NCBI GenBank assembly: GCA_020073085.1
Contig: JAIQFV010000015.1
Coordinates: forward strand, 1 to 64,000
Direction: 5' to 3'
Source: Terriglobia bacterium
GTDB lineage: Bacteria > Acidobacteriota > Terriglobia > JAIQFV01
Length of the DNA: 64,000 nt
The position numbers and the translations under genes are program-made. Positions 45,526 to 60,987 of the stretch are shown here, piece by piece. Every line of letters starts with the position of its first letter. Positions within the stretch are counted from its first letter, which is position 1. The notes below the pieces were generated by a model. The model had not been told where the DNA came from. It saw only the letters and a list, made by a program, of their open reading frames with translations, and did not search any database.

Positions 45526-48123
45526 TTATTGGTGGTTCGATGATTTAGGTCTTGCTCCCGTTTTCAGGGCTTCCTGAAAGGCTCCTTCGTTTCGCAGGTT
45601 GGCCAGCTCTGGATCCCGGGCAATATCGGCGACGGGATACCCCCCCTCGACTGCCCTGCGAATCCAGTTTAGAGCTTCCTGTTTCTTGCCACAGAGGTTG
45701 TCGACTTCGGCGGCCTGGAAGAGGTTGTTGGGATCGTTTGGATCCAGATCCATGGCTCGGCGAAGGTCTTTCTGCGCCTCCTTGACATCGCCCGTCTTGG
45801 CAAGACAGAGGGCCCGCGTCAAATAAGCTTCAGCGTCGCCCGGATTAACCTGCAAGTCCCTTGTGGCAAGCTGAATGGCCTTGATGTATGAGTCCTTGGC
45901 ACGCGGTTGCATTCCTGGTGTCCATCGATACGCATCCCCCAGGTTGGCCCAAAGCACATAGTATCCGGGCTTCAGCGCTACGGCTTTCTCGTAAGCCTCC
46001 GCGGCTTCATGGTAGCGACCGAGGGCGTATTCGAGCGTCCCCAGGTTCGAATAGGCGTCCCCGGTGGGATTCAGATCAATCGACTTCAAGTAAGCGGCCC
46101 GGGCCTCATCCGTTCGATCGATCTGTTGAAGGGCGGCCCCGAGATTGTAATAGCCGCGTGCATTATCCGGAGAGAGCCCCACGACACGTTGAAACATCTT
46201 GAGGGCCTTGGGATACTGACCGCGTTCGAAATAGAATTTCCCCAGCTTGTTGTATCCGGACCAGTAATCGGGCTGAAGTTGAAGGGCTCGGGCGTAAGTG
46301 GTCTCAGCTTCTGAAAGCTTGCCCGCTTTCTCGTAGGCTTCGGCTAATCCGAGTGTCGCATCGGCGGAGTAAGGCTGTTTCGACAGCGCCTGCTGGAATT
46401 GTTCGATCCCCTCCACGGCGTGGCCTGTGCGCGTTTTGAGGAGACCGAGGGTCACATGGACCTCCGGCATCCGGGGATCGAGTTGCTCAGCGCGCTGGCA
46501 CAGGGTGATGGCCTGTTGTGCCCAGGTGGTTTCGTGGCTTAAATCGTACTTGTAGAGATAGGCCCGGCATAGACCCGCCTCAACGAGCGCCGAGTCCGAC
46601 CCGGTCCTCGCCAATTCCTTGAGCAGGGCAATTCCGCTGTCCACGGAGGACTCATTCTCAAATCGCTGCAAGTAACCCAGCGCCTGGAGGTAGTGATCGT
46701 GGGCCGCAGCGGTTTCCAAACCGGTTCGCTGGGGAGGCTCGGTCCGCACCGGAAACTGCAATTGCAGCTTATTCACGACGCTCTGGGCCACGCGATCCTC
46801 CAGGGCAAAAAGATCTTCGGCGGAACCGTCCACCGTATCTCCATCAATTTGACTCCGCCTTGATCCACTTAAAAGTGAATAGACCACCCGGAGTCGGTCG
46901 CCCACTCGCTGCACGGAAGCGCTCAGAATCAGGTTCGCCCCCAACTCCCTCACAATTCGGGGAAGATCCGTTTCGGGGACCGAGAGGCTTCGAACCATGG
47001 CCGGAGTCATCACCTGGACGCCGGAGACGTCTTGCAGGTGGGCGCTCACCACCGCCGCAAAACCCTCTGCAAAAAGCTGCCCGTTGGGGTCGCCGCTCAG
47101 ATCCTTGAACGGCATGACAATGAGGTGTTTTTGAGCGGGGAGGGAGTCTCGCTGCGAAGTAGGGGACTTCCGGACAACCCAGGACACCAGCAGCACCAGT
47201 GCGATCAGAAGCACTCCCAGGAGCTGGTAAAGGTGCTTCCCCAGCCAACCCCCTGTCCGATCAGGTGCAGCCAGGACCGCTTCAATCTCCATCCGCGCAT
47301 CTCCGATGTCCCGGAGACGATTTCTCAACTCCTTCTGCATGCACCGCTGAAGCAAATCCCGGATGAGGCTCGGGGTCTCGCCGGGCAGCGCCTCCCACTC
47401 AGGCTCCTGGGTGAGGATGGCCGCAATCTTGTCCGACCGGGTCTCCCCGTCAAAGGCCTTCCTGCCGCACAACATTTCATAAACGACACAGCCGAACGAC
47501 CAGATGTCGGTCCTTCTGTCGACGGGCTTGCCCCGCGCTTGTTCCGGACTCATGTAAGCTGCTGTACCCAGAACGGTGCCTTGCGTGGTTCCCTCCACGG
47601 TGAGCGTGGGAGATTCCGAAATTTCATCCGTTGTATTCTCCCTATCCGTTCCTTTGGCCAGCCCAAAATCGAGGACCTTGACCTTCCCCTCCGGAGTGAT
47701 CTTGATGTTCGATGGCTTCAGGTCGCGATGGATAATGCCCTTCTCGTGAGCCGCCTCCAACCCCTCTGCAATCTGCCTGGCAAACTGGAGGCTATCCTGG
47801 AGGGACAAGGGGGCGACGGCGATTTTGTCAGCGAGGGTCAGACCGGGAACAAGCTCCAGAACGAGGAAGCGCACCCCCTCGCAGTCCTCAAGTCCATAAA
47901 TGGCGCCGATGTTCGGGTGATTGAGGGCGGCGAGAAGGCGTGCTTCGCGCTCGAACCGGGACAGCCTCAGGGCATCCCCCGCGAGGGCCTCGGGGATGAC
48001 CTTGATCGCCACTTCCCGTCCGAGCTTGGTGTCCAGCGCCCTGTAAACCTCACCCATCCCGCCAGCGCCGAGGGAGCCGAGTATTTCGTAGGCACAAAGT
48101 CGTGTACCGGTTGTCAGAGCCAT
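45526..48123 (-). CDS. Ser/Thr protein kinase with TolB/FlgO-like domain and TPR repeats
   Basis: An 865-residue transmembrane kinase. The kinase domain is at about 12-275: glycine loop GAGGMG at 19-24, ATP lysine K41 (VAIKVI), HRD at 132-134, DFG at 152-154, MSPEQARG. A membrane segment lies at about 297-317 (LLGVLLIALVLLVSWVV). Then comes a TolB/FlgO-like region (about 330-455, HLIVMPFKDLSGDPNGQLFA) and about nine TPR units (480-845, e.g. AEAYLTRALCLAKTGDVKEA). It belongs to a different kinase subgroup from those at 36648 and 42547 (activation region TTQGTVLGTAAYMSPEQ). It heads a set with the two small paralogous genes downstream. Confidence 0.93.
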   Translation of the reverse strand: MALTTGTRLCAYEILGSLGAGGMGEVYRALDTKLGREVAIKVIPEALAGDALRLSRFEREARLLAALNHPNIGAIYGLEDCEGVRFLVLELVPGLTLADKIAVAPLSLQDSLQFARQIAEGLEAAHEKGIIHRDLKPSNIKITPEGKVKVLDFGLAKGTDRENTTDEISESPTLTVEGTTQGTVLGTAAYMSPEQARGKPVDRRTDIWSFGCVVYEMLCGRKAFDGETRSDKIAAILTQEPEWEALPGETPSLIRDLLQRCMQKELRNRLRDIGDARMEIEAVLAAPDRTGGWLGKHLYQLLGVLLIALVLLVSWVVRKSPTSQRDSLPAQKHLIVMPFKDLSGDPNGQLFAEGFAAVVSAHLQDVSGVQVMTPAMVRSLSVPETDLPRIVRELGANLILSASVQRVGDRLRVVYSLLSGSRRSQIDGDTVDGSAEDLFALEDRVAQSVVNKLQLQFPVRTEPPQRTGLETAAAHDHYLQALGYLQRFENESSVDSGIALLKELARTGSDSALVEAGLCRAYLYKYDLSHETTWAQQAITLCQRAEQLDPRMPEVHVTLGLLKTRTGHAVEGIEQFQQALSKQPYSADATLGLAEAYEKAGKLSEAETTYARALQLQPDYWSGYNKLGKFYFERGQYPKALKMFQRVVGLSPDNARGYYNLGAALQQIDRTDEARAAYLKSIDLNPTGDAYSNLGTLEYALGRYHEAAEAYEKAVALKPGYYVLWANLGDAYRWTPGMQPRAKDSYIKAIQLATRDLQVNPGDAEAYLTRALCLAKTGDVKEAQKDLRRAMDLDPNDPNNLFQAAEVDNLCGKKQEALNWIRRAVEGGYPVADIARDPELANLRNEGAFQEALKTGARPKSSNHQ

Positions 48124-48771
48124 ACGGTCGAGGAAACCACCCCGTTACTGATTCTCCGCAGAACCAAGCTTCACGGGCCAAACATCAAGTCCGACTCAGC
48201 CCATGCGAACTCGCCACAGAACAATCTGGAGCAACCCACCTTGGGCAGAAAGCGGATCAGTCACCATCACGGCGGTTCTGCATCCTGGAATGATTCTTGA
48301 AGTGCATTCTACAAAGGAAACGGTCTCAAGGAGGGACGAGTGCGTTTGCTCTCAATCATCAACTCTCCCTCTCCTTGACGCTCACAATTCTATGGGCGGC
48401 CGGAATTCCGACACGTGTGAATGCCCCGTATCTGCCGAAAGCCAGGCGTCTTTAAAACGCCAAAAGTGGTAAGTCCGCAAACTGCTTATAGTATGAACCC
48501 GCGAACCTTTAACAATCAAGCTTGTTCGTTGAGACTTCGAGGGATAAGGATCGGAGTCGGGAATTAAGGAGGGGTGGAGAAAAGCTTTTCACGCCGCGTC
48601 TTCGGAGCGTCTTTGGAGTCTGGCCGCTTGCTGCCGCTTTCACAGTCCGGAGCCAGTGTCGCGCTCACTTCGTCGGCAAAGGACGGGGCGCCGAACCATC
48701 GCGCAAGCCGACTTGGGCACTCTAACGGGATGACACTTCATCTTCGGCTATGACGATTTTCGTAACACTCC
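48124..48771. other. intergenic gap, no gene seen
   Basis: About 650 bases upstream of the kinase gene and beyond the 3' end of the hybrid kinase gene. No protein-like frame, RNA gene, repeat family or convincing terminator is visible. The kinase promoter should be in its first part. Confidence 0.45.
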
Positions 48772-51700
48772 CTACTCCGCAAGCGTTGCCAAGGCCGGGA
48801 TGATCCAGTCGATCTCCGCCTTGAGTTTGGCGTAAACCTCGTGGGCCAATACGAGATCGTTCTCGCGTCCCAATTTCTCTAATTTCTGTGCAGCCTCAGT
48901 CGCTCCTTTGGCGCCGAAGTTACTCACAGCACCTTTCAGGGTATGGGCTGAACGCTCAAGGGCCTTGCTATTTCCTTGTGTGATTGCACCCCGGATCTCG
49001 GACAAGAGTTGGGAGGTACTCTCAAGAAACACATCTCGGATCTCCCTCAGAAAGTCCGGATCTCCATCAGCCAGGGCCAGAATCGCCTCCCTGTCGATGG
49101 CTTCCCTTTCGTCGGGACGTGAGGGTGACACCTCGGCCGCGCCTTCGGCTCTCTTCTCGGTTGGCGCTAACGGGGATATCCCCGTGTTCCTCGAACTCGC
49201 GGCGGAAATCTGTTTTTCAATTGCCTCGAAGAGCCGGGTGGCTTGAATGGGCTTGGGCACATAGCCGTCCATCCCGGCCGCCAAACAGCGTTCTTCGTCA
49301 CCCCGAATAGCATGAGCGGTCAAGGCAATGATCGGGACGTGCCCGCCGGTCCCCATTTCTCGTTCCCTGATGGCCGCAGTGGCTTCGAAGCCGTTCATTT
49401 CCGGCATTTGCATGTCCATCAGCACAAGGTCGAACGCCTCCGTCTCCATTCGGCGAAGCGTCTCGCGGCCATTGTTCGCCACGACGACGGTGTATCCGTG
49501 TTTTTCCAGCATATGGACCGCGACCTTTTGATTGACGACATTGTCCTCAGCCAGAAGAATATGAAGGGGCTTGTGGGGAACCGGCCCGGAATGGTGTGTG
49601 ACGAGTGGTGATAGACCTTTTTGCATGGGCCGGGCGCTGAGCACGCCCACGATAGCATCGAACAGATCGGAGTGCTTGATTGGCTTCGACAAGTACGTGG
49701 AAATGCCCAGATCCCGGCAGCGCAGGGCGTCGCCTCGCTGACCGCCCGAAGTTAACATGATGATTTTGACACCCGCCAGATGGACGTCTTGCTTGATTTG
49801 CTCAGCGACCGTAAACCCGTCCATGAGGGGCATGTCCACATCGAGCAGGACCAGCGGAAACGGGGCACTTGATTCCCATGCCTGCTGAAGGGCGATCAAG
49901 GCAGCTTTTCCGTTGTCGACTACCGTCGGCCGCATCCGCCAGCTCGTCAGAACGTCATCCAGGATGCGCTGGTTGGTGGCGTTGTCGTCGACCACGAGAA
50001 CGGGTAGCTCCCTCAAATCCATCGGCCGTATCGTCTCAAAGTGCTCTTCAGCCTTCTCTAGTTCAAAGGATGCCGTGAAGTGAAACGTGCTTCCCCGATT
50101 GACTTCGCTCTCGACCCAGATGCGTCCACCCATTGACTCAATGATTCGAGAAGAGATCGCCAGGCCCAGGCCGGTCCCGCCATACTTGCGGGTGGTCGAG
50201 TTGTCGGCCTGCGAGAAGGCCTCAAAAATGGTCTGCTGCTTGTCCGCGGGGATGCCGATCCCGGTGTCTGCCACAGCAAAGTGCAGTTGCACCTTGGGTT
50301 CCGCCCGGGATTCGACTTCAACGTGGAGAACCACTTCGCCCGCCTCAGTAAATTTGATGGCATTGCCGACCAGATTGACAATGACCTGACGCAGGCGGCC
50401 GGCGTCGCCAATGAGAACGTCCGGCACATCCGGTCGCACATGGCAGGCCAGCTCCAGTCCCTTGTCAATTTCTTTCAAGGCCAGTGTCCTGATGATGTTG
50501 TCGAGGCTGTCTCGCAGGTTGAACCGGATGGGATCCAACTCGAGTTTGCCCGCCTCGATCTTTGAAAAATCAAGAATGTCATTGATCAGGGACAAGAGGA
50601 CATTTGCGGAGGACCGGACCAGGCCCAGATATTCCCGTTGCTCTTCGGAGAGATCCGTTTCAAGCGCCAGCTCGGTCATTCCGATAATCCCGTTCATGGG
50701 GGTGCGAATCTCGTGGCTCATGGTGGCTAGAAATTCGCTCTTGGCCCGAGAGGCCGCTTCGGCAGCCACCTTCGCCTTTTGCAGCTCTGCCTCTGCCCGC
50801 TTGCGCTCGGTAATATCGACATACATCGCATAGATTCCCTCGAGATTCTTCTCCACCAGGATGGGCACCCCGTAAATTTCGACGGGCATCAAGCTTCCGT
50901 CTTTTCTCTTCCTCAAGCTCTCCCGGCAGACGACATCCCCCCCCAGCACTGTCCCTGAAAATCCAGAAGCCTCTTCGAAGCATGACTGGGGGACAATGAC
51001 TTCATTGATGGGCAGCCCCTGAATCTCCTTGAAGGAATACTGAAAGATATTCTCAAAACTCTGATTCACATGCAGGATTTTCTCTTCCTTATCCAGCATG
51101 GCGATTCCAATGGGTGCGTTTTCATAGAGCTGCTGAAAGCGCACCTTCTGCAACAGAATCTCGATCTCGGCGCGGGAGCGCTCATCGATTTCCTTCTGCA
51201 ACTCCCGGGTCCGCCCTATGACCCGATGCTCCAATTCATTGCGGGCCTGTTCAAGCGCCCCGTCTCTCGCCTGGATCTGGCTCAGCATCTCGTTGAACGC
51301 GGTGGTGAGCATTCCCAGTTCATCATCACGGTGCTGGCGGGCCCGGACTCCATAATTCTTCTCGACCGAAACCACCCTGGCCGTCTCGGCCAATTCCAGG
51401 ATCGGCCCGGAGATGACGCGCTGCAATCGGGTGGACAACAGCCCGGCCACCAGAACCGCCATCAACAGGACAAGGCCCATGATCAGCACGTATCGCTTCA
51501 TCCGGGCGTTCAACTCTTGAAGGTCGGATCGAAGGTAAATCGTCCCGATCCTTTCGCCCTGCAGAACTACAGGTTTGAACAAAACCAGGTGTCCTCCATC
51601 GAACCAGACTCCATCCGAGGAAGGCCTTTCCGGCAGGTGCGGCGGGGCGATGTTTCCGCCCGGGTAGGTGGTCAGCACTTTCCCGTCTTCTGTATAAAGG

Positions 51701-51963
51701 CACGCCGCGACAATCGCCGGGTCAACACGCAGGGCCGAGAGGGTTTCCCCCGCGGCCTGCTGATCGCCGAAACTAAGCGCGGCGGTGCTGTTGTTGGCGA
51801 TCATTTCTGCCATCGTGGACAGATTCCGCAGGGCCGCCCTGCGAGATACGATCACATCGTAGGCTCCAAAAGCCACGCAGGCCAGTACCAGCGCCGCCGC
51901 ACTGGTCAGCGTGATTATCAAGGCGAGCTTTCGACTTATGGAGATGTCCCGGAAGGAGCGCAT
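48772..51963 (-). CDS. hybrid sensor histidine kinase with CHASE8-like sensor, HAMP, PAS, two receiver domains and HPt
   Basis: A 1063-residue multi-step phosphorelay protein. In order: membrane segment about 12-34; periplasmic sensor about 35-155 of the CHASE8 type ([20 protein letters not shown]); second membrane segment about 158-180; HAMP about 182-235; coiled coil; PAS about 270-390 with its PAC end; HisKA with the phospho-His in [18 protein letters not shown]; HATPase with [20 protein letters not shown] and GTGLGLAIS; receiver 1 about 668-785 ([13 protein letters not shown]); receiver 2 about 815-935 ([14 protein letters not shown]); and HPt about 965-1055 ([15 protein letters not shown]). 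All phospho-acceptors are present. No separate output regulator is adjacent. Confidence 0.93.
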
Positions 51964-52762: not shown

Positions 52763-54292
52763 ATGAAAAACAGACTGGTCTATCTTCTTCTCATTTTGAG
52801 TTTATGTTTCTTTGCTGGCTGCAACTCCCAAAATGCGCAGTCTTCCGGACACATCGAGCAAACAGATCGACAACCTGCCGTCGCAGGACAATTCTATCCG
52901 GCCGAGAGAGAACATTTGGAGACCATGCTCCACCAGTTGTTCTCAAAAGCCGTTCCCGCAAAGCATCTTAAAAACGTGATCGCCATTATTTCTCCGCACG
53001 CGGGTTATCCCTACTCCGGAGAGGTGGCCGCTTCGGGTTTTAATCAAATCGATCCGGAAAAGGAATACGACAACATTTTCATTTTGGGTCCCAGCCACCA
53101 CATTGGCTTTGAGGGCGCCTCTATTTACTCCAAAGGCAATTTTGTCACGCCGCTGGGAACGGTCAAGGTCAACACCAGGCTTGCCCAGGAACTCGTCCGG
53201 AAACACAAATTCCTTTCAGACCGGGTTGATGCTCATCAGGCGGAGCACAGCATCGAAGTGCAGCTTCCCTTTTTGCAGATGGTGATGAAGAAGGACTTCA
53301 GGATTGTTCCCGTCATCGTAGGCTCCGGGTCAGCCGAAATGTACGCGCAGATCGCGGAAGCCCTGCGCCCATACTTGAATACGAGAAACCTCTTCGTGAT
53401 CAGCACTGATTTCTCTCACTATCCGGCTTACGCTGATGCGGTTACCGTCGACAAGGCCACGGGCGATGCCGTGTTGACTAATTCCGCCGGAAACCTGATG
53501 AAGACCGTCAGGGCCAACGCCCTGAAAAGCATCCCCAACCTGGCCACCAGCATGTGCGGGCTATCGGGCGTGCTGACGTTGCTGTATATGACGCAAGACA
53601 ATTCCCGGGTGACCTACACGCCGATTCAATACAAGAATTCGGGAGATGCGGATCCCGGCATGAGACAGCAGGTCGTCGGGTATTACGCCATCGCTGTGTC
53701 ACTCCAGGAGGGGGCCCCCGGTGGCGGCTTCGGCCTGACCGATAAGGAAAAGGGGGAATTATTGGGAATCGCGCGGTCGGCCCTCGATCAGTACCTCAGG
53801 AATCGGCGGGTCCCTGAGATTGATGCGTCCATTTTCTCTGAAAACATCAGGACGAAGACCGGCGCCTTTGTGACGCTGAATAAGAACGACCAGTTGAGAG
53901 GATGCATCGGACGATTTGATGCGAGCGAGCCGTTGTACAAGGTGGTCCAGCAAATGGCCGTTGCCGCAGCAACGGAAGATCCCCGCTTCGGTCCCGTGGA
54001 ATCCGCAGAATTGAACAAACTTGAAATCGAAATCTCAGTGCTCACCCCGTTGCGGCGCATCCACTCCATCGATGAGATTGAAATGGGCAAGCACGGCATC
54101 TATCTCCGCAGGGGAATGAAGTCAGGAACGTTTCTGCCGCAGGTGGCCACCGATACGCACTGGACGAAGGAAGAGTTCCTGGGTCATTGCGCCCAGGACA
54201 AAGCGGGCCTGGGCTGGAACGGGTGGAAAGACGCGGAAATCTACGTCTACGAGGCGATCGTGTTCAGTGAAAAAGAAATCCTGAAACATTGA
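52763..54292 (+). CDS. AmmeMemoRadiSam system proteins B and A fused (Memo-AMMECR1), predicted lipoprotein
   Basis: A 509-residue protein. Residues 1-20 are a lipoprotein signal (MKNRLVYLLLILSLCFFAGC, Cys20 as the lipidated residue, then Asn-Ser). Residues about 33-320 are a Memo-type domain (AVAGQFYPAE; SPHAGYPYSG; LGPSHHIGF; AHQAEHSIEVQLPFLQ; STDFSHYPAY), with the His residues that bind metal in this family. Residues about 330-500 are an AMMECR1 domain (GAFVTLNKNDQLRGCIGRFD; VAAATEDPRFGPV; EIEISVLTPLRRI). Family knowledge: the two domains and a radical SAM enzyme co-occur as the AmmeMemoRadiSam system, of unknown function. The ATG at 52763 is chosen because it opens the lipobox signal; the frame is open to 52712. 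The expected location outside the cytoplasm is unusual. Confidence 0.88.
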   Translation: MKNRLVYLLLILSLCFFAGCNSQNAQSSGHIEQTDRQPAVAGQFYPAEREHLETMLHQLFSKAVPAKHLKNVIAIISPHAGYPYSGEVAASGFNQIDPEKEYDNIFILGPSHHIGFEGASIYSKGNFVTPLGTVKVNTRLAQELVRKHKFLSDRVDAHQAEHSIEVQLPFLQMVMKKDFRIVPVIVGSGSAEMYAQIAEALRPYLNTRNLFVISTDFSHYPAYADAVTVDKATGDAVLTNSAGNLMKTVRANALKSIPNLATSMCGLSGVLTLLYMTQDNSRVTYTPIQYKNSGDADPGMRQQVVGYYAIAVSLQEGAPGGGFGLTDKEKGELLGIARSALDQYLRNRRVPEIDASIFSENIRTKTGAFVTLNKNDQLRGCIGRFDASEPLYKVVQQMAVAAATEDPRFGPVESAELNKLEIEISVLTPLRRIHSIDEIEMGKHGIYLRRGMKSGTFLPQVATDTHWTKEEFLGHCAQDKAGLGWNGWKDAEIYVYEAIVFSEKEILKH

Positions 54293-54380
54293 CCTGAATT
54301 CCGGGATTTGCCCGGGGCCAATTCTCGGAAATCCGGCTTGCCACCCCTTCAACGATCCGGCGATCCCGGGTGCTATCTTT

Positions 54381-56555
54381 ATGGTTCATTCGAGTGTCGA
54401 CAGAAGGATCATGCTTGCCATCGGCGCAGTTGGCTTTACGTCGATCATGACGCAGACGATCCTGTTGCGTGAATTTCTGTCGGTATTTTCCGGGAATGAA
54501 CTGGTCATCGGGATTGTGCTGGCCAGCTGGATGATTCTGACCGGGGTGGGGTCATTTCTGGGACGGTTCGCCGGCAAGGCGAAACATCGGCTGGACCTCA
54601 TCATCATTTTGTTCCTTCTGACTGCCCTGCTTCCAATCGTCACCGTCTTCCTCCTGAGCTATCTCAGAAATCTTGTTTTCCCTGTGGGCGCCCTGATTGG
54701 GCTGGTCGAAAGCCTGTACAGCTCATTTCTGCTCCTGCTCCCTTACTGCGTGATTTCAGGCCTCCTCTTCACCCTCTTTGCACAGACCGCCTCGGAACAG
54801 GGGAATTCCAATCTCATCGCCAGCGTGTACTGCTGGGAATCCCTGGGGAGTATCGTGGGCGGCTTTCTGTTCAACCTCGTGATCGTTTTCCTGCTTTCGA
54901 CCTTTCAAGCCCTCCTCCTCCTCGCTGTCTTTAACCTCAGTGTCTGTTTCTCTGTCTCCTTGAAATATGGGAGGCCGGCCTTCAGGTACGCCCTCCCGCT
55001 CGTGGGAGGTCTGGTTGTGGTGCTGGCTTTAACGGTCAACCTGGATGCACTTTCGAAGCGGTTCCTGTTCCGGAATCAGGAACTCCTTTTTTACCTGGAC
55101 ACCCCTTACGGCAACCTAACCCTCACCCAACAAGGGGAGCAAAGGAACTTTTACGAGAACAGTGTCCTTCTTTTCTCCACAAATGATGTGATGTCGAATG
55201 AAGAAGCGGTTCACTATGCCATGGTCCAACATCCACGTCCCCGCAACGTCCTCCTCATCTCGGGCGGCATTTCAGGGACGATCCGGGAGATCCTGAAGTA
55301 TGATGTGGATCGAATCGATTATGTGGAGCTCAATCCCTGGCTCATCGAGATGGGGAGAGACTATACCTCCGCATTAACGAGTCCCAAACTTCATGTCTTC
55401 ACGGACGATGCCCGGAGATTCCTCAGAGATGCGGACGGACACTACGACGTCGCCTTAGTCAATGTGCCCGATCCGGTGACCGCGCAAATTAACCGGTACT
55501 ATACCGTAGAGTTTCTTCGGCAGCTCAAGATGAAGCTGAATGCGGAGGCAGTGGTCTCCTTCAGCCTGCTCCCGTCGGTGGACTACCAGGGTGCGGAAGC
55601 CCGGCTGCTCAGTTCCATCATGAACAATACGCTGCGCACGGCGTTCAAGAATGTGCTGATTGTCCCCGGGCTGCGAAATTACTATCTCGCCTCCGACGCT
55701 CCGTTGGACATCGAAATCACCCGCAGGATTGAACAGCGCCACATCGCCAACAGCTATGTGAATTCCAGTTATGTCGACGATCTCTCCTTGCGCCAAAGAA
55801 GTGATGCCATGGTCCGGGATCTCTCAGGGCGGACCGTCTTGAACAGAGATTTTGCTCCCATCGCCTACTATCGCCAATTAATGTACTGGCTCAGCTCCCT
55901 GCAGTTCAGTCCCTGGATCCCGGGCGGCGTCTTGATCGTTCTTCTCGCGCTCGTGACGGCGAAGCTCAATACGATCAGCTTCGGATTGTTTACGGGGGGA
56001 TTCGCGGCCTCCTCCATGGAACTTCTGCTGCTGATTTCGTTTCAAATCCTTTATGGGTACGTCTATCAGGCCACCGGCTTGATCATTACCCTGTTCATGG
56101 CGGGGCTTGCGGCGGGATCCTTTTACGGACAGAAACGATCCAGGCCTTTTGGTGTTCCGGGATTCATTGGTACCCAGTGCGCCATTGGCGTCTATTGCCT
56201 GCTGCTCCCCATCGTCCTTTTGATATTGAAGGGAGCCCATCTGGGGGACTTCATAATTCACGCCATCTTCGTCCTCCTCACCTTTGCGGTGGCAGCGCTC
56301 GTCGGCCTGCAGTTCTCCATCGCCTCAGCCCTTCGGAGGGGAAAAATTGAGTCGGTGGCCTCAGAACTGTACAGCATCGACCTCATAGGCTCGGCCATCG
56401 GCGCCCTGGTTGTCTCGACCTTCCTGGTCCCGCTCCTGGGCATTGCGAAAGTCAGTCTTGTCGTCGCATCCCTGAGCTTGCTGAGTGCCGTCGTGACGAC
56501 GCTCAATAGAAACCGATCCACCGTTTTTTCAGAGAGTGAGTTGGCCCATGTGTGA
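54381..56555 (+). CDS. polytopic membrane protein with spermidine-synthase-like domain
   Basis: A 724-residue protein in three parts. Residues about 10-215 contain six to seven membrane segments (e.g. FLLLLPYCVISGLLFTLFAQ). Residues about 240-480 form a soluble Rossmann domain of the spermidine synthase class: LLISGGISGTIREIL as the nucleotide-binding loop, DYVELNPWL as the acidic strand end, FTDDARRFLRD, and VALVNVPDPVTAQINRYYT where spermidine synthases have their catalytic Asp-Pro. Residues about 505-710 have six or seven more membrane segments. Family members are annotated as spermidine synthase-like or fused MFS/spermidine synthase proteins and none is characterised to my knowledge. It lies 88 bases after the Memo-AMMECR1 gene and overlaps the radical SAM gene by eight bases, so the three form an operon. 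Confidence 0.85.
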   Translation: MVHSSVDRRIMLAIGAVGFTSIMTQTILLREFLSVFSGNELVIGIVLASWMILTGVGSFLGRFAGKAKHRLDLIIILFLLTALLPIVTVFLLSYLRNLVFPVGALIGLVESLYSSFLLLLPYCVISGLLFTLFAQTASEQGNSNLIASVYCWESLGSIVGGFLFNLVIVFLLSTFQALLLLAVFNLSVCFSVSLKYGRPAFRYALPLVGGLVVVLALTVNLDALSKRFLFRNQELLFYLDTPYGNLTLTQQGEQRNFYENSVLLFSTNDVMSNEEAVHYAMVQHPRPRNVLLISGGISGTIREILKYDVDRIDYVELNPWLIEMGRDYTSALTSPKLHVFTDDARRFLRDADGHYDVALVNVPDPVTAQINRYYTVEFLRQLKMKLNAEAVVSFSLLPSVDYQGAEARLLSSIMNNTLRTAFKNVLIVPGLRNYYLASDAPLDIEITRRIEQRHIANSYVNSSYVDDLSLRQRSDAMVRDLSGRTVLNRDFAPIAYYRQLMYWLSSLQFSPWIPGGVLIVLLALVTAKLNTISFGLFTGGFAASSMELLLLISFQILYGYVYQATGLIITLFMAGLAAGSFYGQKRSRPFGVPGFIGTQCAIGVYCLLLPIVLLILKGAHLGDFIIHAIFVLLTFAVAALVGLQFSIASALRRGKIESVASELYSIDLIGSAIGALVVSTFLVPLLGIAKVSLVVASLSLLSAVVTTLNRNRSTVFSESELAHV

Positions 56556-57708
56556 ACTAATCGAACAGAAGAATTTGACTCGAAGACGATTCAATAAGTA
56601 CTGTGTCCTGGGGATGGGGGCGTGTCTTGTCGGGCTGGACTGGCTGGAGCATCTCACCGGCACCTCGAATGTACTTCTGGGCTCTGAAGGTCCCGGGAAA
56701 TGGAGCAAGGAAGCCCTTTTCTATTCAAGAACAGGCAATACCATCACCTGTCTGAAATGCCCCAACTACTGCCAACTGGGACTGGATGACACCGGGAAGT
56801 GTCGCAACCGGGTGAGCTACCAGGGAAAGCTTTACACGATTGCCTATGGAAATCCCTGCGCAGTTCACATTGATCCCATCGAAAAGAAACCGCTCTATCA
56901 TTTTCTTCCTACCACCCGGGCCTTCTCGATCGCTGCGGCCGGATGCAATTTCCGGTGCCTGAACTGCCAGAACTGGCAAATTTCCCAAGTCAGCCCAAAG
57001 GAAACAGCCAATGCGGATTTAATGCCCCAAGCTGTGGTTGACCAGTGTGTCAATTCGGGTTGTGAATCGATTGCGTATACCTATTCGGAGCCAATTTCAT
57101 TTTACGAATATGTGCTGGATACGGCAAAGCTTGCCCGCGCGAAAAAAATTAGAAATGTTTTTAAGTCGAATGGCTACATCAATCAAGAACCCCTCCGCCT
57201 GCTGTGTAAGAATCTCGACGCGGCCAATATCGATTTGAAGTGCTTTGAGGATGGGACCTACGCCCGATTGTCCGGGGGCAAACTGGCGCCCATCCTGAAT
57301 ACCCTCAAGACCTTGAAGCAAGAGGGCGTGTGGCTGGAAATCACAAATCTGGTCGTCCCGAGCTGGACCGACAATCTTGACATGATCAAGAGGATGAGCG
57401 ACTGGCTGGCGGCCAACGGACTGGCCGATTGCCCCCTGCACTTCACACGGTTTTCTCCACTCTATAAACTCAGCCAGCTCCCCATGACCCCTGTTTCGAC
57501 CCTCGACAAAGCGAGAGAAATCGCCATGCAAGCAGGAATGCACTATGTGTACGTCGGCAATGTCCCCGGGCATGCTGCCGAAAATACTTACTGCCATGGA
57601 TGCAAGAAGCTGCTCATGGAGCGAAAAGGATTCCGGATTTACGCCAACAACATGGCTGCCGGCAAGTGCAAGTTCTGTGGTGAAAGAATTCCGGGGGTCT
57701 GGACCTAG
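56548..57708 (+). CDS. AmmeMemoRadiSam system radical SAM enzyme with Tat-like N-terminus
   Basis: A 386-residue protein starting MCELIEQKNLTRRRFNKYCV; the motif TRRRFNK followed by a moderately hydrophobic stretch (VLGMGACLVGLDWL) fits a twin-arginine signal. The radical SAM cluster motif CNFRCLNC (CX3CX2C) is near residue 136. A Cys cluster upstream (CLKCPNYCQLG, about 71-81, plus C90) and one at the C-terminus (CHGCKK; CKFCGERIPG) probably bind further metal. LDLK-type sequence NIDLKCFEDGTY and FTRFSPLYKL match the AmmeMemoRadiSam radical SAM family, of unknown reaction. The ATG at 56548 is chosen; a GTG at 56536 is the alternative. Export of a radical SAM enzyme would be unusual; the N-terminus could instead be an anchor. 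Confidence 0.87.
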   Translation: MCELIEQKNLTRRRFNKYCVLGMGACLVGLDWLEHLTGTSNVLLGSEGPGKWSKEALFYSRTGNTITCLKCPNYCQLGLDDTGKCRNRVSYQGKLYTIAYGNPCAVHIDPIEKKPLYHFLPTTRAFSIAAAGCNFRCLNCQNWQISQVSPKETANADLMPQAVVDQCVNSGCESIAYTYSEPISFYEYVLDTAKLARAKKIRNVFKSNGYINQEPLRLLCKNLDAANIDLKCFEDGTYARLSGGKLAPILNTLKTLKQEGVWLEITNLVVPSWTDNLDMIKRMSDWLAANGLADCPLHFTRFSPLYKLSQLPMTPVSTLDKAREIAMQAGMHYVYVGNVPGHAAENTYCHGCKKLLMERKGFRIYANNMAAGKCKFCGERIPGVWT

Positions 57709-57965: not shown

Positions 57966-60539
57966 ATGAAATCAGTTCTTGCCATCGATAAGCGGACCCA
58001 CCCTCCCTCCATGCCTCGACTCCTCCTTTTGGTGTTTTTCATCCTGGCGGTGAGCATTGGGGCTTCCGGTTACTATTACTATTCCAACCAGCGAAAAGAT
58101 ATCAAACAAAGCAGTGCCGAAGAGCTTTCCGCCATCGCCGAGTTGAAGGTCAACGGGATTGTGAGTTGGCGGAAGGCTCGACTGGGAGATGCCGACGTTA
58201 TCTTTGGGGGTCCCTGGACTGCCGCCCGGATCCAGCAGTTTCTCAACGACCCGTCTTCCGTTGCCCTGCAACAGGAAATCCTGACGTGGATGGAATCCAG
58301 AAGGAAGAACTATCAATACAACTCTGCTTTTTTATTCGACGCCCTGGGAAACATCAGGTTATCTGCCAACCCGGAGGATGAACGGATCCACCCCCTCACG
58401 ATCGATCTCGTAAAGCAAGCCTTGAGCACCCGCCACGCAATTCTGTCGGACATTCGGGAATCGAACCAAGGAAAGGATCTTGATATCGATCTGATTGCAC
58501 CCCTTGTCCTGGGGAAGGGCTCGGAAAAGATTCTGGTGGGTGCTCTCCTTTTCCGAATCGACCCTCGCACCATCCTATACCCGCTCATCCAGACGTGGCC
58601 CACGCCCAGTAAGAGTGGTGAAACCCTGCTCGTTCGTCGCGAGGGGAAAGACGTTTTGTTTTTGAATGATCTGCGCCACCGCAGGAATGCTTCCCCAGCC
58701 CTCCGAATCCCTCTTACCAAGCTGGAGGTCCCGGCTGTTCAGGCGGCATTGGGCCAGGAAGGAACAGTGGAGGGGGTGGATTACCGCGGCGTCAAGGTGC
58801 TCGCGGTCAAACGCGTCATCCCTGATTCATCCTGGGCGATGGTTTCTAAGGTGGACATAGATGAAGTCTACCGGCCCCTCTACGAGCGAGCGCGCTGGGT
58901 CATTGCGTTCGTGGGGATTCTGATCCTCTCCGCCGCCTTGTGTCTGGGATTCATTTGGAGACAGCAGACAGCCCGTTTCTATCTCAAAGGATACCAGGCG
59001 GAACTGGCACGGCGGTTGACCGAGCAGAGGATGAAAGAGAGCGAGGCGCGCTATCGCTCTTTGTTCGAGAACATGCTTGAAGGATACGCCTACTGCCGGA
59101 TGATCTTTGAACACGATCAGCCCCAAGATTTCATCTATCTCGATGTCAATCGTGCCTTCGAGCAATTGACCGGCCTGAAGAATGTCGTTGGGAAAAGGGT
59201 CACCGAGGTGATTCCGGGGATACGGAGGACCACTCCGGAATTATTCGAGGCTTATGGCCGGGTGGCATCGACGGGCAAGCCGGAAACATTTGAGATTTAT
59301 GTTGAGGGCCTGGGAATCTGGTTTTCGATCTCCGTATACAGTCCGCAAAGAGATTGCTTTGTCGCCGTTTTCGAAAACATCACGGAGCGCAAGCGCGCCG
59401 ATACTGCGTTGCGTCACAGTGAGGCGCAATTCCGCACCGCCTTCGATGACGCGCCCGTCGGCATGTGCTTGACCACTCCTGAGGGCCGTCTCCTGCGGGT
59501 TAACCAAGCCCTCTGCCAATTCCTCGGATACACGGAGCCGGACCTGCTGGCCAGGGGTTTTGACGAGGTGACGCACCCGGACGACCGGGAGAACAGCCTC
59601 GAAGGCTTAAAGCGCGTGCTATCCGGAAAGGCAGAATCCGCCGATTTTGAGAAGCGATACCTCCGCCGGGACGGACAGCCCATCTGGGCGTTTGTGAGAA
59701 CTTTTCTCCTGAGGGACGCGAACCACCAACCCGTCCATTTCATCACGCACATCCTGGACATCAATGAGCGCAAGCGCTCGGAGGAAGAGGTCCGCCGATT
59801 GAACATTGAACTGGAACAACGTGTGCTCGACCGCACCACCCGGCTGGAAGCGGCCAACCAGGAACTGGAGGCGTTCGCATATTCCGTCTCCCACGACCTT
59901 CGCGCTCCGCTGCGTGCCATGGATGGATTCTCGCGCATCCTGCTGAGTGATTACAGCTCCCAGCTTGCCTTCGAGGCCAAGCGCTATCTTCAATTGGTAC
60001 GGGACAACGCCCGGCAGATGGGTCATTTAATCGATGACCTGCTCGCCTTCTCGAGGCTCAGCCGTCAAAACCTGAATAAGCAAGTGGTCCGGCCACAAGA
60101 TCTGGTCAACCAGTCTATCGAAGATCTACGCCCCGAGCAGGATGGCCGGAAGGTGGAAATCAAGGTGGGGTCCTTGCCCGCCTGCCACGCCGATTCACCC
60201 CTGCTCAAACAGGTCTTCATGAACCTGCTATCCAATGCGCTCAAATTTACCCGTAAACGCGAGTTGGCCGGCATTGAAATTGGCTGCCAGAGTCGAAATG
60301 GCGGGGCCACCTATTATGTCAAGGACAACGGCGTGGGCTTTGACATGCAGTATGCACAGAAATTATTCGGTGTTTTTCAACGGCTGCATCGCTTGGAAGA
60401 ATATGAAGGCACCGGCGTGGGGCTGGCGATCGTGCAGCGGATTATCTCTCGCCATGGAGGGCGCGTTTGGGCCGAGGCCGCGTTGGACCAGGGAGCAACT
60501 TTCTATTTTACTTTGGAGGGAGAGACGAGCCATGAGTGA
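57966..60539 (+). CDS. membrane sensor histidine kinase with two PAS domains (phytochrome-type kinase core)
   Basis: An 857-residue kinase with AAAGGTC ahead of the ATG. A membrane segment at about 17-37 ([20 protein letters not shown]), a periplasmic sensor of about 265 residues (Cache-like in size), a second membrane segment at about 310-330 ([20 protein letters not shown]), PAS 1 at about 360-478, PAS 2 at about 485-603, and HisKA with [20 protein letters not shown], then the ATPase domain ([39 protein letters not shown]). The [11 protein letters not shown] form is typical of Cph1-like and CHASE-type kinases that work with Rcp1-type regulators. Exactly such a regulator gene overlaps its end by eight bases. 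Confidence 0.92.
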
Positions 60540-60987
60540 AAGACCTGTGGAAATCCTGCTGGTGGAAGATAACCCGAATGACGTGGAACTCACCCTGCAT
60601 GCTTTCAAGAAACACAATCTTTCCAATCGAGTCCACGTCACGCGCGATGGCGTTGAGGCCCTGGACTATATCTTTGGCTCAGGGGCCTATCAGGGCCGGA
60701 ACATCGAGGACAAACCCAAGGTGATCCTGCTCGATTTGAAACTGCCCAAGGTGGATGGGATCGAAGTCCTCCGCAAGATCAAGGCCGACGCGAGGACCCG
60801 GGCCATCCCCGTGGTCGTCTTGACCTCCTCCCATGAAGAGCGCGATATCGTGGAAACTTACAATCTGGGGGTCAACAGCTACATTGTCAAACCCGTCGAC
60901 TTCGAACAGTTCACCGAAGCCGTTCGGGAGGTAGGCCTTTACTGGCTGCTCCTCAATCGGCCCCCCATCTTTAATCCGAACGGCTAG
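60532..60987 (+). CDS. single-domain response regulator, Rcp1 type
   Basis: A 151-residue receiver-only protein. The phospho-acceptor is D68 ([13 protein letters not shown]), the acidic pair is E12-D13 (LLVEDNPND), and the switch residues are in VVVLTSS and YIVKPVDF. The extended loop with [12 protein letters not shown] is characteristic of the Rcp1 group, partners of phytochrome-like kinases. No output domain; it would pass phosphate on or act by protein contact. The ribosome binding site (GGAGGGAGAG) lies inside the kinase gene, whose stop codon it overlaps (ATGAGTGA). Confidence 0.93.

Follow-up and report, generated by a model that had tools for sequence, protein, structure and literature searches.

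A signal-bearing AmmeMemoRadiSam system linked to a membrane protein in Acidobacteriota and its predicted location outside the cytoplasmic membrane

Radical SAM enzymes depend on SAM and strong reductants and are for this reason regarded as cytoplasmic; the chemistry of AmmeMemoRadiSam systems is likewise thought to take place in the cytoplasm. A locus where members of all three AmmeMemoRadiSam families are encoded beside a membrane protein, and where export signals precede both the Memo-AMMECR1 part and the radical SAM enzyme, raises the question of whether this chemistry is also performed on the other side of the membrane. The locus lies in the window, i.e., the whole analysed stretch of 64,000 nucleotides from a Terriglobia bacterium, which is part of contig C15 in a genome of 5.79 Mb. 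A preliminary description had proposed that the entire system acts at or outside the inner membrane; here, we addressed this proposal by comparing the locus with its relatives.

Three genes of the forward strand constitute the locus, with a gap of 88 bp between genes 1 and 2 and an overlap of 8 bp between genes 2 and 3. The first (52763-54292) encodes a Memo-AMMECR1 fusion of 509 aa, whose N-terminus (MKNRLVYLLLILSLCFFAGC) is a lipoprotein signal peptide (52763-52822) with the lipobox FAGC and the predicted lipidated Cys20 (52820-52822), followed by a Memo domain (52871-53689; PF01875 214 bits, TIGR04336 242 bits against a cut-off of 26) and an AMMECR1 domain with the LRGCIG motif (53768-54265; PF01871 176 bits, TIGR04335 172 bits against a cut-off of 99). 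The second (54381-56555) encodes a 14-helix membrane protein of 724 aa, in which PF01564 (67 bits) sits between two hydrophobic blocks. The third (56548-57708, ATG start) encodes an AmmeMemoRadiSam radical SAM enzyme of 386 aa (TIGR04337 336 bits against a cut-off of 220) carrying the twin-arginine motif TRRRFNK at residues 11-17 (56578-56598) and the CxxxCxxC triad Cys133, Cys137 and Cys140 (56944-56967), so all three families are matched above their curated cut-offs. Translation of the open reading frames and profile matching bore out the reading frames, coordinates and features of the preliminary description, including the Cys20 lipoprotein signal, TRRRFNK and the intervening membrane protein. 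In a second species (L033), which has the same gene order, Tat motif and Cys20, the proteins are 87-89% identical and dN/dS amounts to 0.09-0.15 (0.09 for the fusion); the three genes are one operon under purifying selection. A genome of the same family, at 57% identity, shows the same gene order, has SRRRFAT as its Tat motif and carries a Sec signal with no clear lipobox. The genes flanking the operon (45526-51963 and 57966-60987) encode a Ser/Thr kinase with TPRs, a hybrid histidine kinase and a PAS histidine kinase with a response regulator, and are not conserved with the triad.

Sixty regions were fetched for locus comparison. The motif RRx[FLMWA] followed by a hydrophobic stretch was found in 51/51 other loci of the radical SAM clade to which the window's enzyme belongs (35 of them with F), hence in 52/52 rows with the window counted, and an AxA-like site lies behind it in 48/51; since some loci were picked for having a partner gene, these counts describe the clade and not radical SAM proteins at large. 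Under a strict rule, demanding a start codon within 20 residues, RRx[FLMWA] and an uncharged hydrophobic stretch, 48 of the 51 clade loci pass vs. none of 53 signal-less paralogues; two of the three failures merely have no usable start codon nearby (one being at a contig end), and the third falls below the hydrophobicity threshold. Judged by these counts, the motif is not a product of chance. In the tree of 108 rows, the Tat-bearing proteins occupy one side of a single branch, as expected for one change (SH-aLRT 80, which falls short of firm proof), with two signal-less groups placed elsewhere. TatC and a cytochrome c assembly protein were detected in 15/15 genomes tested (twelve with haem-type loci, see below, that of the window and two others), so that the features of a Tat substrate, i.e., a motif of the [ST]RRxFxK type, a hydrophobic stretch and TatC in the genome, are found together. 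A lipobox-like stretch with Cys is also contained in 18/52 of the Tat signals, and some of these radical SAM proteins may be lipid-anchored.

One subclade of the radical SAM proteins provides an additional clue. Its twelve members, a single group with support of 100, all have a CxxCH motif at a fixed place between the Tat signal and the enzyme domain (12/12), with His residues downstream of it; the window's own enzyme is without CxxCH. The position of the motif beyond the Tat signal, together with the cytochrome c assembly protein encoded in the genomes, predicts that these proteins carry c-type haem. Covalent attachment of such haem takes place on the outer side of the membrane, and the gain of CxxCH thus lends independent support to export. 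It also hints at an electron route for the exported enzyme.

The search for membrane-protein homologues in GTDB contigs yielded one near relative only, and the survey was therefore based on whole-genome searches within Acidobacteriota. Counting the fusion only when full Memo-AMMECR1 was recovered and scoring the membrane protein as present above approximately 90 bits, we found the former in 60 and the latter in 56 of 198 genomes: both together in 54, fusion alone in six, membrane protein alone in two and neither in 136 (Fisher p ~5e-39, with genomes treated as independent and kinship ignored). A radical SAM match was present in all 56 genomes with the membrane protein, and the three genes adjoin each other in several different orders. 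The triad is not a local oddity but recurs across many Acidobacteriota. Most of 24 genomes examined have two AMMECR1 genes, typically one of ~190 aa and a Memo fusion of 480-600 aa, the latter either beside the radical SAM and membrane genes or elsewhere in the genome. All 13 remote fusions fetched begin with a hydrophobic signal, whereas the stand-alone AMMECR1 copies have none, and nearly all Memo-AMMECR1 fusions examined in the phylum bear signal peptides; in many homologues it is a Sec signal lacking a lipobox, while lipobox and Cys are present in the window and L033. Similarly, 20 short radical SAM reading frames have no signal, and most of them come from surveyed genomes that also contain the Tat copy. 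The genome of the window itself contains plain versions of each component (a second radical SAM gene at C7:139498, stand-alone AMMECR1 at C7:125315 and stand-alone Memo at C10:203334), and two sets per genome, with the plain one usually kept alongside the signal-bearing one, appear to be the common state. Loci preserving the gene order after loss of both signals, named in the preliminary description as the case that would speak against it, were not found in Acidobacteriota.

Searching plasmids gave no homologue that covers 80% of the membrane protein; what it did return was a small number of AmmeMemoRadiSam loci from other phyla. Two of these, in Segatella and Ideonella, combine a fused Memo-AMMECR1 with an adjacent radical SAM gene having neither a Tat motif nor a membrane partner. 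The fusion of the Segatella hominis plasmid (L144:2408-4825) has a likely signal peptide; its radical SAM gene is truncated at the C-terminus and followed by transposase-like fragments. On the Ideonella dechloratans plasmid (L145:2603-9026), the fusion is signal-less and the pair is located near an arsenic-resistance operon.

Residues expected at the active sites are preserved throughout the exported set. The radical SAM cysteines are invariant in 52/52 sequences, and so are two additional sets of four cysteines (68/71/75/85 and 349/352/374/377); metal-ligand-type His79 and His112 of the Memo domain are kept in 49/49 and Cys265 in 48/49, and AMMECR1 Cys381 of the RGCIG motif in 49/49. With all key residues conserved, the set looks catalytically active and not degenerate.

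The alignment of 43 homologues of the membrane protein displays seven hydrophobic peaks on the N-terminal side of the inserted domain and seven or eight on its C-terminal side. Helices 1-6 are homologous and parallel to the last six (hhalign probability 97.8, E 6.5e-13; at most 3.3 for reversed controls). With the N-terminus inside, which also leaves the C-terminus inside, K+R number 17.5 per protein on the inner vs. 2.4 on the outer side, the excess being inside in 43/43 homologues and in each half separately. This positive-inside topology places the domain of residues 220-507 (55038-55901), via the extra helices 7 and 8, on the outer side, and the spermidine-synthase-like domain is thus predicted to face the same side as its partners; its location depends on TM7 and TM8, and the domain would be cytoplasmic if both were non-spanning. 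An AlphaFold model built from 2 sequences only reached pLDDT 37. Two parallel homologous six-helix halves are the arrangement of MFS-type proteins, and NF037959 (fused MFS/spermidine synthase) scores 53 bits against a cut-off of 40; since the likeness consists in the two-half repeat and a Pfam profile search gave no MFS match, membership of MFS is not claimed.

The domain itself aligns with spermidine synthases (best 3anx/1uir, E 9e-18), its nearest solved relative being the aminopropyltransferase of T. thermophilus. The SAM-site residues, namely the glycine-rich loop, Glu316, Asp343 and Asp356, are conserved among the 43 homologues, as are R372, T375 and a P-x-P motif. The acid of GxG(D/E)G occurs in 2/43, and the column of the catalytic Asp holds D in 4/43, so the pair of residues distinguishing a spermidine synthase is missing from nearly all of the family, and an aminopropyltransferase function was rejected on these grounds. 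The membrane protein had originally been suggested to handle a SAM- or polyamine-derived group; the polyamine part of this suggestion is disfavoured by the same residues, while a role connected with SAM may apply. In two loci (L042:1-3376 and L043:345-3810), a second homologue of the membrane protein adjoins a different, distantly related radical SAM gene (31-36 bits), and other radical SAM enzymes may also be partners of this membrane family.

Among the locus neighbours, where a substrate gene was sought, DUF362 and DUF6599 were the only recurrent families of note, and no recurrent multihaem cytochrome was encountered. A DUF362 gene immediately precedes the Tat radical SAM gene in 31 loci (e.g., L108:1343-2329, L082:9739-10881 and L114:3926-4993) and often encodes a twin-arginine motif itself; it is missing from all haem-type loci and is not adjacent in the window. 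DUF362 is possibly an alternative electron or metal partner. In nine loci (e.g., L081:3020-3952), a DUF6599 protein with a signal-like N-terminus is encoded close to the radical SAM gene, on the other strand.

Export signals on the radical SAM enzyme and the fusion, the outward domain, intact active sites and genetic linkage together support a set of proteins located in the envelope, and AmmeMemoRadiSam chemistry probably also happens outside the cell membrane. The proposal made from the window is thereby strongly supported by comparison, as a prediction, through the Tat motif universal in the clade, the signals of the fusions, CxxCH and the outward domain. With moderate confidence, we favour a duplicated AmmeMemoRadiSam system, or complex, on the outer face of the cytoplasmic membrane, where the membrane protein would deliver SAM, present it or take it away. 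The radical SAM enzyme would acquire its fold and its [4Fe-4S] cluster in the cytoplasm before being exported by Tat; the fusion would leave by the Sec route and, in this genus, be held by a lipid anchor. The membrane protein, predicted to comprise a six-helix block, an extra helix, the outward SAM-binding-type domain, another extra helix and the homologous six-helix block, would most likely provide the exported enzyme with SAM or deal with a SAM product, a second SAM-dependent group-transfer step being the close alternative. Electrons might come from periplasmic carriers, with one subclade having its own predicted haem on the radical SAM protein; Memo-AMMECR1 may hold or process the substrate at the membrane, and the three proteins could form a complex. 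The target would probably be an envelope molecule encoded outside the operon, since no substrate gene is linked. A bolder form of the same idea, with an enzyme working outside the membrane, connected to c-type haem in one branch and receiving its SAM through a dedicated permease whose SAM-binding domain faces outward, is offered only tentatively.

Several observations stand against the favoured explanation, and part of them feed its rivals. Six genomes have the fusion and lack the membrane protein, and the Segatella fusion has a likely signal while its radical SAM gene does not. To our knowledge, neither a SAM pool nor a low-potential donor for a radical SAM enzyme exists in the bacterial periplasm, which counts against export and would suit an enzyme that retains its Tat signal but works in the cytoplasm or before export, leaving Memo-AMMECR1 alone outside. 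The Tat-less radical SAM proteins beside fused Memo-AMMECR1 in Segatella and Ideonella agree with such a division; however, retention of the motif in every clade row and the gain of CxxCH in the Tat clade only, given where c-type haem is attached, make it rather improbable. If all parts reside in the envelope, the membrane protein might be a SAM-dependent group transferase (methyltransferase-like) acting on the same substrate in a separate step and not a supplier of SAM. We regard this as a possible, though not the likeliest, state of affairs: the domain is homologous to spermidine synthase, R372, T375 and P-x-P suggest a catalytic site, and the GxG(D/E)G acid absent from 41/43 homologues is the very feature whose loss is said to set the fungal methyltransferase NHMT apart from spermidine synthases (PMC10349129), but the second six-helix block is absent from NHMT, which is likened here by its published description, and no acceptor is known. 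It seems very improbable that the membrane protein acts as a genuine aminopropyltransferase on polyamines and that polyamines are what the system modifies, because the matches to PF01564 and the NCBIfam aminopropyltransferase models, like the kinship with the T. thermophilus enzyme, are offset by scores far below the SpeE equivalog cut-offs (e.g., 164 vs. 472 bits) and by the active-site replacements described above.

A literature search returned neither exported radical SAM enzymes nor this arrangement; an earlier mention is possible in a 2019 JBC dioxygenase/Memo survey, which reportedly discusses Memo gene contexts. The families are already known, and it is the exported, membrane-coupled version, surveyed within one phylum, that appears new as far as this search went. 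If the conserved exported clade is real, SAM and low-potential electrons must be available outside the membrane, with a route for both. The exported set would give the question of Memo and AMMECR1 function, which concerns bacteria and humans alike, a testable setting with an envelope substrate and a partner membrane protein, and the paired cytoplasmic paralogue of the same genome is a built-in control for its knock-out.

In relation to known systems, the locus belongs to the same families as plain AmmeMemoRadiSam (TIGR04335/TIGR04336/TIGR04337; amrA, amrB, amrS) with all key residues kept, and departs from it by signal peptides, the Memo-AMMECR1 fusion, the linked membrane protein, the separate Tat clade and the haem motif of one subclade. 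Fungal NHMT (AN4663), a SAM methyltransferase of secreted LPMOs and a precedent for the arrangement proposed here, is an ER-resident protein with seven helices and a spermidine-synthase-like domain; its activity needs the helices, and limited SAM in the ER was considered a possible constraint by its authors (PMC10349129). Like the present protein, it has a helical bundle joined to a domain devoid of the GxG(D/E)G acid, and its action in the secretory pathway resembles the predicted extracytoplasmic site; it differs in being fungal, in having one helix block and in the absence of AmmeMemoRadiSam partners. Fused MFS/spermidine synthases of NF037959 similarly combine N-terminal helices with the domain, whereas here the domain is followed by a second homologous helix block and the gene occurs in linkage with those for the exported Memo and radical SAM proteins. 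Human MEMO1 (7kq8, 3bcz) and AMMECR1 (archaeal homologue 1zq7) have the same folds and share the metal-ligand-type His/His/Cys and the RGCIG Cys, whereas here the two are fused and, by prediction, exported.
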